From Methanomassiliicoccales archaeon (GTDB lineage Archaea; Thermoplasmatota; Thermoplasmata; Methanomassiliicoccales; JACIVX01), in contig JARYLV010000002.1 of the NCBI GenBank assembly GCA_029907465.1, positions 62,001 to 126,000 of the forward strand: DNA of 64,000 bases. The letters run 5' to 3'. Positions 53,683 through 60,270 of the stretch are shown piece after piece. The notes beneath the pieces were generated by a model, which was not told where the DNA came from, did not search any database, and saw nothing but the letters and a program-made list of their open reading frames with translations. The position numbers were made by a program, and so were the translations under genes. How positions within the stretch are numbered: position 1 is the first letter of the stretch; every line of letters starts with the position of its first letter.

Positions 53683-54696
53683 ATGAATCTCGAAGCCCTG
53701 ATATCAGATATCAAAAAACACCCTGGGATTACGAGGAAACGTACGATCTCTGACGTTCTTCACTTCTTCCCAAAGATCGATCAAGGAAACATCCTGGCTT
53801 CTTGGGGAGAGGATGCAGCTGTCATCGAATTCGGCGATTCTGTTCTTCTGCTCGCCGCTGATGGCATCATGGAACCATTGATGAAGACGAATCCCTACTT
53901 CGCGGGCTATTACTCAGTTCTTGTCAACATCCACGACATTCTTGCCATGGGCGGGATTCCCCTCGCCATGGTTGACGTGATTTCTATGAAAGAGGAAAAA
54001 ATTTGTGCGCAGGTCATGAGAGGCGTTGAAGCAGCTGTAAGAAAATTCGGTGTCCCCATGGTCGGCGGTCACACCCATCCAGATTGTGAATATCATGCTA
54101 TCGACGTTGCAATATTGGGCTTCGCTGGAAAGAACGAAGTCATTTATAGTCACACGGCTGAAAGCGGTGACGATATTATTTTCGCGATGGACACGGACGG
54201 TTATTTTCCAGATAGGTTGCCTTACGCATGGGACACCACTTCAAAGAAGAGCGAGGAATTCGTAAGGCGGCAGATGCGTATCATGAATGAGATCGGAAAG
54301 AAAGGTCTAGCCACCGCTGGAAAAGATATGAGTAATCCAGGGTCTTTAGGGACGCTCGGCATGTTGCTTGAAACAAGTGGGAAAGGAGGTATTGTCGATA
54401 TCGATCTGATACCAAAGCCAGAAAACGAGGATCTCACACAATGGCTCAAGGCTTACCAGGGCTTTGGATTTGTACTGACAGCGAACCCTGATAACTCTGA
54501 AGAGATCATCAATTTGTTTAGGACTGTAAGCGTAGAGGCGGCAGTTGTTGGGAGTGTGCAATCAAACAATAAACTCATCCTGAAACAAGGAAACAATACA
54601 GGCGTTCTCTTTGATTTTGACAAGGACGTAATTGCAGGATGCAAGGGACCTTTAGTAACGGAAAGAGTTCGCAAGAAGTCTGAAAAATTGTGCTAG
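53683..54696 (+). CDS. PurM-like ATP-binding protein (methanogenesis marker 2-like)
   Basis: 337-residue AIR-synthase/PurM-fold protein. Blocks are WGEDAAVIEFGD, LLLAADGIMEPLMKTNPYFAGYYSVLVNIHDILAMGG, VGGHTHPDC, and the distinctive KDMSNPGSLGTLGMLLETSGKGG. These fit the COG2144/methanogenesis-marker-2 group, which also occurs in some non-methanogens; the reaction is unknown, the fold suggests ATP-dependent phosphorylation or selenophosphate-like chemistry. The stop codon (54694-54696) overlaps the last bases of the SRP RNA encoded on the other strand. Confidence 0.82.
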   Translation: MNLEALISDIKKHPGITRKRTISDVLHFFPKIDQGNILASWGEDAAVIEFGDSVLLLAADGIMEPLMKTNPYFAGYYSVLVNIHDILAMGGIPLAMVDVISMKEEKICAQVMRGVEAAVRKFGVPMVGGHTHPDCEYHAIDVAILGFAGKNEVIYSHTAESGDDIIFAMDTDGYFPDRLPYAWDTTSKKSEEFVRRQMRIMNEIGKKGLATAGKDMSNPGSLGTLGMLLETSGKGGIVDIDLIPKPENEDLTQWLKAYQGFGFVLTANPDNSEEIINLFRTVSVEAAVVGSVQSNNKLILKQGNNTGVLFDFDKDVIAGCKGPLVTERVRKKSEKLC

Positions 54697-55001
54697 GCCG
54701 CAGGGGTTGCCGCCTGGTTCGAAGAGGATTGTCCAGACACCTTCTCGGCCCCGTTTGCCCCCGAGCGTCGGTAGTTCATGGTTAAGCTGCTCCCGTCAGG
54801 GCCTGACTCGTTCCCCATGATTAGAGCAAAGGATGCAGCCCTCCAGCTGCATCGCAATGCTGCCACCGACCCCGAGGAACAAGACCTCATCGTTGGTGTA
54901 AGGGTCCTCATCGTTCCAGTTACGACGTCCCCTGCTGTCACCCCCGCATATCGACGATTTCGGTGTATAAGGGCACGCCGAACGCCCCGGTCAAGCCTAG
55001 C
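54692..55001 (-). ncRNA. SRP RNA (7S RNA)
   Basis: Archaeal signal recognition particle RNA of about 310 nt, on the minus strand. The 5' part has GGGGCGTTCGGCGTGCCC and CCGAAATCGTCGATATGCGG, the archaeal Alu-domain/helix 5 sequence. Helix 8 shows GTCAGGCCCTGACGGGAGCAGC, with the symmetric loop bound by SRP54. The ends pair (GCTAGGC at 55001-54995 with GCCTAGC at 54698-54692). The short reading frames in this GC-rich stretch are therefore not genes. Ends are estimated from pairing and the promoter position. Confidence 0.93.
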
Positions 55002-55024
55002 GAATGCTCATTAACCCATTTTCG

Positions 55025-58579: not shown

Positions 58580-58722
58580 ATGTCAATGATCCAAGCTTTT
58601 CTAAACTATGCAAATATCCATAAGTTACCTCATTTAAATGTATTGATGACAGGATGCTTTGTTACTTTGTCATCCTTTGATCGGACAAAAGCCTACCGGT
58701 CTGAAAAAAACATCCTAAGGAG

Positions 58723-58815
58723 TGGACCGAGTGGGATTTGAACCCACGGCCTCCGCCTTGCGAAGGCGGCGATCTTTAGCGGCGCTCTAACGCACATCCA
58801 CTGATCTATCGGCCC
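58723..58815 (-). tRNA. tRNA-Ala(CGC) with a D-loop intron
   Basis: On the minus strand: acceptor GGGCCGA/TCGGTCC with the G3-U70 identity pair of tRNA-Ala, D-stem GATC/GATC, anticodon stem CCGCC/GGCGG around TTCGCAA (anticodon CGC), T-stem GTGGG/CCCAC with TTCAAAT, discriminator A; CCA not encoded. The D-loop is 28 bases long, too long for a mature tRNA. It folds as a bulge-helix-bulge, so I infer a 19-base intron at 58777-58795; removal gives a 74-base tRNA with D-loop AGTGGATAA. A TATA-like GATTTAATCC lies about 27 bases upstream. Confidence 0.93.
58777..58795 (-). other. Inferred 19-nt non-canonical tRNA intron (BHB motif)
   Basis: Within the D-loop of tRNA-Ala. Central helix GTGG (58801-58798) pairs with CCGC (58782-58779), one G-U pair included. 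The flanking three-base bulges are ATG (58797-58795) and TAA (58778-58776). The inner helix is TGC/GCG with loop GTTAGA, and the outer helix is the D-stem GATC/GATC, with an A-A mismatch beside it. Cleavage after the second bulge base on each side excises GTGCGTTAGAGCGCCGCTA. Confidence 0.65.
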
Positions 58816-58911
58816 AGGCACCGATAATGAGATTGGAGATTTAATCCTTTCCCCGTTGAGAAAATTGAATGGGGACGAAACAACCAGAGGCACTATCGGT
58901 CAATCCTTTTT

Positions 58912-60270
58912 TCAAATCGTCTTCCCCAATAGTTCCTCAGCCCTCTTGACCACTTCATCGACAATCTCAGGAGCCTTTCCGAGGTAATTCTCCGGTGCCA
59001 TGACCCTGTCGAGATCCTCCTCACTCATGACCGACATGACTTCCTTGGATTTGAGGAGAACTTCCCTCAGATTCACGCCCTTTTCGTCAGCCTCCAAACT
59101 GCACTTTCTCACCAGTGCATGCGCCTCCTGACGTCCCATGCCCAGTCGGACAAGCTCGATCATCACAGCCTCAGCCATGATCAATCCGTTTCCCCTTTGG
59201 AGATTCTCACGCATCTTGTCCTCTCTCACGGACAGATTTGAGAATACGTCGATCGTCTTTGCCAGGATGTCGTCGGTGAGGACGAGGACGTGCGGTAAGA
59301 TGAACCTCTCTGCGCTCGAGTTCGTCAGATCTCTCTCGTGCCAGAGAACCATGTTCTCAAGTGCAGGCATCACAAAAGACCTCACGATTCTTGCCAAACC
59401 GCAGATGTTTTCTGAAGTCACTGGGTTCTTCTTTTGCGCCATCGTCGAGCTGCCTACTTGTTTCTTGACATCGAATGCCTCGGAGACCTCTTGAATTTCA
59501 GAACGCTGCAGATTCCTCACTTCAGTCGCGTACCGCTCACATGAGGTGCAGATCTGAGCCATGAGGCAGACTAGCTCAGCATACCGGTCTCTGCAAACGA
59601 CCTGGGTCGCCGCATCCTCAGCCACTAGACCGAGCTCTTCCATGACCTTTCGCTGGATCTCGAGGAACTTCGGACCGAGGGCGGCGCCTGTTCCAACCGC
59701 GCCAGACATCTTACCAACGCAAACCCTCTTTTTGATTTCTTCCAAACGCTCGCGGTGTCTCATCATTTCAGCCGCGTAGCCAGCGATCTTGAAGCCGAAT
59801 GTCATAGGTACGGCGAACTGACCGTGAGTCCTTCCGACCATTACAGTCGTCCGATGTCTCTTTGCGAGCCTGGCAAAAACTTCGATAAGTTCGGTGATGT
59901 CGTGATTGATGATTTCGAGTGCCTCTTTGATCTGAATCGCGGTGGAGGTGTCAATAATATCATTCGACGTGGCACCGAGGTGAACATACTTCCCCGCCTC
60001 CCCGCATTTCTCGGCTAGTGCTTTGACCACTGCCATGATGTCATGTTTTGTCTCTTCCTCAATCTCCTTAACGCGATCCAAAGTCACAAATTCGAGCGTT
60101 GCCCTAGATGAAATTACCTCTGCGTCAGAATCTGGAATATTCCCAACAAAAGCATGTGCTCTGGCGAGGGCTGCTTCAACTAGCAATTGCGTTCTGAGCT
60201 TGTTCTCTTCGCTGAAAATCGCCTTTATCTTCGGGCGGCCGTAACGGTAGTCAAGAGGGCAGAGAAGCAT
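58912..60270 (-). CDS. purB: Adenylosuccinate lyase
   Basis: 452-residue member of the fumarase/aspartase superfamily that acts twice in purine synthesis (SAICAR to AICAR, adenylosuccinate to AMP). The first signature is KAIFSEENKLRTQLLVEAALARA, the His loops are HLGATSNDIIDTS and GRTHGQFAVP, and the mobile loop is GSSTMAQKKNPVTSENI, the archaeal form of GSSxMPxKxNP. The length is normal. ATG start 60270. Stands alone next to tRNA-Ala. Confidence 0.95.
   Translation of the reverse strand: MLLCPLDYRYGRPKIKAIFSEENKLRTQLLVEAALARAHAFVGNIPDSDAEVISSRATLEFVTLDRVKEIEEETKHDIMAVVKALAEKCGEAGKYVHLGATSNDIIDTSTAIQIKEALEIINHDITELIEVFARLAKRHRTTVMVGRTHGQFAVPMTFGFKIAGYAAEMMRHRERLEEIKKRVCVGKMSGAVGTGAALGPKFLEIQRKVMEELGLVAEDAATQVVCRDRYAELVCLMAQICTSCERYATEVRNLQRSEIQEVSEAFDVKKQVGSSTMAQKKNPVTSENICGLARIVRSFVMPALENMVLWHERDLTNSSAERFILPHVLVLTDDILAKTIDVFSNLSVREDKMRENLQRGNGLIMAEAVMIELVRLGMGRQEAHALVRKCSLEADEKGVNLREVLLKSKEVMSVMSEEDLDRVMAPENYLGKAPEIVDEVVKRAEELLGKTI

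Follow-up and report, generated by a model that had tools for sequence, protein, structure and literature searches.

The window is the whole stretch of DNA analysed, 64,000 nucleotides long (contig C2:62001-126000), from a 1.72 Mb genome assembly that is 96% complete. The host belongs to the Methanomassiliicoccales: the purB product of the window is 90% identical to its homologue in a Methanomassiliicoccales MAG, and the next-best matches are to the same order. The earlier note's description of the genome as euryarchaeal-looking is correct in the old sense of that name. The features of the locus are as follows.

58912-60270, minus strand: purB (ORF with 80 relatives), which we take from general knowledge of the protein family to encode adenylosuccinate lyase; the neighbour used for tRNA orthology
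58838-58852, minus strand: putative BRE/TATA element GGAAAGGATTAAATC, about 28 nt upstream of the tRNA gene (from the sequence)
58723-58815, minus strand: tRNA-Ala(CGC) gene in precursor form, 93 nt
58797-58815, minus strand: 5' exon, tRNA positions 1-20 (parser and comparison with intronless orthologues)
58776-58796, minus strand: D-loop intron, 21 nt, position 20/21, UGUGCGUUAGAGCGCCGCUAA (strict BHB register; covariation in orthologues)
58723-58775, minus strand: 3' exon, tRNA positions 21-73 (excision scan and sequence)
58760-58762, minus strand: anticodon CGC (sequence and excision scan)
58704-58710, minus strand: run of seven T downstream of the tRNA gene, a putative terminator (from the sequence)

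The sequence at 58723-58815 scores 60.2 bits against RF00005, above the Rfam tRNA threshold, and has the anticodon CGC, which confirms its assignment in the earlier note as tRNA-Ala(CGC). The G3-U70 pair is present, the acceptor, anticodon and T arms are intact as had been described, and the D-loop of the precursor is 28 nt long. An A-rich element comparable to the putative promoter is found upstream of other tRNA-Ala(CGC) orthologues. An archaeal SRP RNA gene (RF01857, 177.8 bits) lies at window positions 54691-55002 on the minus strand, and one is also found a few kb from purB in the Ca. Sysuiplasma locus L063.

Every possible excision from the gene was scored, unguided, for the quality of the mature cloverleaf and for the geometry of a bulge-helix-bulge (BHB) motif. 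The best-scoring excision removes 21 nt, 58776-58796, from position 20/21, away from the canonical 37/38, and the resulting motif is a strict hBHBh' stacked directly on the D-stem, with a 4-bp central helix, two 3-nt bulges and both inner and outer helices present:

58803-58806, minus strand: outer helix, 5' strand, D-stem positions 10-13 (GAUC; excision scan and orthologue alignment)
58771-58774, minus strand: outer helix, 3' strand, D-stem positions 22-25 (GAUC; excision scan and orthologue alignment)
58799-58802, minus strand: central helix, exon strand AGUG (positions 14, 15, 16 and 18), paired in 15/15 sequences, column 16 varying UA/UG/CG
58778-58781, minus strand: central helix, intron strand CGCU (orthologue alignment)
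58796-58798, minus strand: 5' bulge GAU, predicted cut after GA, between 58797 and 58796 (BHB geometry)
58775-58777, minus strand: 3' bulge AAA, predicted cut after AA, between 58776 and 58775 (BHB geometry)
58792-58795, minus strand: inner helix, 5' strand GUGC, with compensatory changes in 3/4 pairs
58782-58785, minus strand: inner helix, 3' strand GCGC (orthologue alignment)

The inner helix closes a terminal loop GUUAGA. Excision of the 21 nt leaves a normal tRNA with a 7-nt D-loop, AGUGGAA, identical to that of intronless orthologues.

The earlier note had placed the intron at 58777-58795, a 19-nt register with the central helix GUGG/CCGC, bulges AUG and UAA, the inner helix UGC/GCG and the mature D-loop AGUGGAUAA. 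This reading of the same intron shares three central-helix pairs with the 21-nt register; its GUGG/CCGC helix pairs 4/4 in the window sequence and its bulges are likewise 3 nt long. However, it separates the 3' bulge from the D-stem by an A14.A21 mismatch, has one inner pair fewer and is higher in energy (-7.3 against -9.2 kcal/mol). It also leaves a 9-nt D-loop, AGTGGATAA, which is 2 nt longer than in the intronless orthologues, and the mature D-loops it predicts differ between relatives. The 21-nt register is favoured because its D-loop equals that of the intronless orthologues, its product is uniformly AGYGGAA among relatives and its BHB energy is lower; the 19-nt boundaries are improbable. 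The exact boundaries given in the earlier note are not supported, and the insert is best read from the sequence as a 21-nt BHB intron. ViennaRNA favours a third fold with 2x2 internal loops over the BHB (-11.2 against -9.2 kcal/mol), and one pair of that fold is broken in 7/15 relatives.

The following observations argue that the insert is an archaeal BHB intron, as had been proposed. The structure far exceeds what chance would give: dinucleotide shuffles never reach the folding stability of the whole gene (z -4.8). In each of the 17 distinct orthologous introns the central helix is paired 4/4 and the inner helix has 3-6 bp, an outcome seen in 0-0.3% of letter shuffles per sequence. The motif is strict in 17/17, none being of the relaxed type (hBH or HBh') that lacks a bulge or a helix, and excision yields AGYGGAA in every one, as in the intronless alleles. 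RNAalifold, applied to 15 orthologues, returns the BHB unaided. In this alignment 99.4% of the cells are paired, compared with 20-52% in controls with a slid partner strand, and four pairs have changed on both sides. The pair at column 16 switches between U-A, U.G and C-G, and in the inner helix both sides change in three of the four pairs.

It could be supposed that the tRNA functions unspliced with its 28-nt D-loop, or that the hairpin is merely trimmed, as RNA folding predicts a stable extension of the D-arm. Nevertheless, the introns of the orthologues vary in length (15-23 nt), in sequence and in loop but agree in both splice bulges, in the central helix and in the product of excision, the intronless alleles have a normal D-loop, and the genome encodes a BHB-specific endonuclease. 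An unspliced tRNA is therefore highly improbable.

The tRNA-Ala(CGC) gene lies 3' of purB in the 13 Thermoplasmata loci examined. The intron is present beside purB in three loci of the host's own family (L033, L034, L035), in three that match sequences of family f3 (L038, L040, L042) and in two of family f13 (L059 and L063, the latter from Ca. Sysuiplasma, which belongs to f13), and it is absent from five (L036, L037, L039, L041, L044). Intronless AGYGGAA alleles occupy this same locus in L037, L039, L041 and L044, and are also found in the genomes G111, G044 and G117. A DNA pattern applied to 400 Thermoplasmata genomes finds intron carriers in 4/4 genomes of the own family, 8/8 of f13 and 5/18 of f3, the last all from one genus; the pattern is narrow, and its lack of a true match in the other families of this sample is not proof of absence. 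The same narrow pattern found no convincing D-loop intron in 250 genomes of another phylum. It was at first restricted to Ala(CGC) and then widened, and the wider version still misses the threonine introns (T-loop TTCGAAA, D-stem TAGC). Ten of the 27 genomes matched by the widened pattern were rejected as chance or canonical-intron matches.

The introns of the own family and f3 are alike in sequence, for example GAUGCGUC...GACGC. This similarity and the common synteny argue for a single origin of the Ala(CGC) intron. Position, synteny and similarity would together indicate common descent, the alternative being separate insertions. One f13 genome, G008, has two tRNA-Ala(CGC) matches (L130 and L137) with the same 15-nt intron, a 3-bp inner helix and a 2-nt loop; one of them lies 46 bases from a contig end and may be an assembly duplicate.

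ARAGORN finds the window gene (at 58722-58815) and names it tRNA-Ser(GCT). Among the window gene and its orthologues L033, L034, L058, L059 and L063, it assigns Ser, Pyl, Gly, Cys or Leu, or misses the gene. Automated annotation is thus unreliable for tRNA-Ala(CGC), one orthologue being called tRNA-Pyl, and the order Methanomassiliicoccales includes real pyrrolysine users. Such misreading by standard software is what a pseudogene or a decaying tRNA gene might produce. Yet the exons show no defects and hardly differ between families, and the intron has undergone compensatory evolution. A second intact tRNA-Ala(CGC) gene, which the earlier note had named as the finding that would make this one a pseudogene, was not found in the 96%-complete assembly. 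Decay of the gene is the least likely of the explanations and can be given almost no weight.

The intron is one of about 20 in the roughly 41 tRNA genes found in the genome, of which 14 are canonical (37/38) and about six, Ala(CGC) included, are noncanonical; introns have been reported in about 8% of Euryarchaeota tRNA genes (PMC4090602). The five further noncanonical introns come from the loci L009, L013, L113, L122 and L121 of the same genome, outside the window: 1) Thr(CGT), 16 nt at 20/21 in the D-loop; 2) Thr(GGT), about 19-21 nt in the D-loop, its register ambiguous; 3) Leu(CAA), 25 nt at 21/22 in the D-arm; 4) Val(TAC), 29 nt at 23/24, also in the D-arm; 5) Lys(CTT), 22 nt at 59/60 in the T-loop. 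The congener G164 has orthologues of four of these five (Thr(GGT), Thr(CGT), Val(TAC) and Lys(CTT)), and G379 has that of Thr(CGT). The motif of the Thr(GGT) intron (L009 1501-1593) is imperfect in either register, with an A14.C mismatch or an unpaired outer position, and with T13.T22. Judging from its sequence, it is a possible relaxed substrate of the splicing enzyme. Apparent introns of 9-12 nt in the variable arms of Ser(TGA), Leu(GAG) and Leu(CAG) are parser artefacts, these being normal long variable arms.

Both splicing enzymes are encoded in the genome. The type of the endonuclease, which the earlier note had proposed to check, is alpha2: one 352-aa ORF has two fused PF01974 domains, aligns to the A. 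fulgidus and M. jannaschii endonucleases and carries the catalytic Tyr, His and Lys motifs in its C-terminal repeat (FRVY, HSKYLVH and GVKK, residue identities by alignment). The proteins of the own family, f3 and f13 lack the CSL/ASL insertion, a loop that is linked to broad specificity and sits in the catalytic repeat between its YG motif and its LxLS helix; S. tokodaii 2cv8, used for comparison, has an insertion of this type. Endonucleases from families in which no Ala intron was detected look the same, and the alpha2-type protein is general in the class (138/150 genomes matched). The N- and C-terminal parts of the RtcB ligase lie at the ends of two contigs (L285 and L286; G000:C22 and C32) with the middle unassembled, the split reflecting either an assembly gap or an insertion.

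The earlier note had held that the endonuclease must accept a non-canonical position with a short inner helix. The inference of an abnormal motif is not supported: with the 21-nt boundaries the inner helix has 4 bp and the hBHBh' is regular, so that the position is indeed unusual for the lineage, but the motif is ordinary. As it is strict, relaxed specificity need not be invoked for Ala(CGC), and an enzyme limited to strict BHBs could in principle cut this precursor.

By combining the observed sequence, structure, conservation, enzyme genes and single-gene status in the assembly, it is possible to propose how the tRNA is transcribed, cleaved and ligated. The gene would be transcribed from the TATA-like element. 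In the precursor, the D-stem would serve as the outer helix, and the central helix would form between D-loop bases 14, 15, 16 and 18 and the 3' portion of the intron. The homodimeric alpha2 endonuclease would then cut both 3-nt bulges, and RtcB would join the exons to give the normal 7-nt D-loop. The intron is probably old: at least three Thermoplasmata families would have received it by descent at the purB-tRNA locus, and others would have lost it. To this reading, a functional tRNA-Ala(CGC) with an old 21-nt BHB intron at 20/21 spliced by an alpha2 endonuclease and RtcB, we assign a probability of roughly 90%.

This kind of intron is already known, because position 20/21 is among the published noncanonical archaeal intron sites (Yoshihisa 2014, PMC4090602; Hirata 2019, PMC6379350) and curated noncanonical introns of euryarchaea are part of tRNAscan-SE 2.0 (PMC8450103). 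Its interest is that alpha2 euryarchaea have been described as canonical-only. Noncanonical introns are reported chiefly from Crenarchaeota, Thaumarchaeota and Nanoarchaeota (PMC4090602, PMC6379350), and in 2011 the euryarchaeal ones were attributed to three methanogens, all thermophilic (Chan 2011, PMC3218864). Euryarchaeota with alpha4 or alpha2 enzymes are stated to have canonical introns only (PMC4090602), Korarchaeum was named in 2014 as the sole alpha2 archaeon with noncanonical ones (PMC4033280), and the alpha2 (alpha'2) endonucleases of A. fulgidus and T. acidophilum are listed as of narrow specificity (PMC6379350). A contrary statement is that homodimeric enzymes also cut BHL-like motifs (PMC8707768). 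In the part of the literature covered, no report was found of noncanonical tRNA introns in Methanomassiliicoccales.

The findings indicate that an archaeon need not have a broad-specificity splicing enzyme to carry noncanonical tRNA introns, and an orthologous locus with both intron-bearing and intronless alleles offers material for the study of intron gain and loss. It is somewhat more likely than not that the loopless alpha2 endonuclease of Thermoplasmata serves a varied set of noncanonical introns in the D-loop, D-stem and T-loop, one of which has persisted from the ancestor shared by Methanomassiliicoccales and the Sysuiplasma lineage. If so, the type of endonuclease would restrict the motif, not the position, the published rule that noncanonical positions go with (alpha beta)2 or epsilon2 enzymes would have to be restated, and the imperfect Thr(GGT) motif would become a test case for the acceptance of relaxed motifs.

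The Ala(CGC) intron resembles the known noncanonical archaeal introns, whose published lengths are 11-129 nt (PMC4090602, PMC6379350), in its short length, BHB motif and position, but here the Methanomassiliicoccales have a conserved set of such introns, and the Sysuiplasma family shares the one in Ala(CGC). With canonical 37/38 introns it shares the hBHBh' geometry, with a 4-bp central helix, two 3-nt bulges and a tRNA stem as the outer helix; that stem, however, is the D-stem and not the anticodon stem, and the D-loop bases supply the central helix. The endonuclease is the same fused two-repeat protein as the alpha2 enzymes of A. fulgidus and T. acidophilum, with catalytic motifs in its C-terminal repeat and without the CSL/ASL loop, yet in this genome it occurs alongside about six noncanonical introns.
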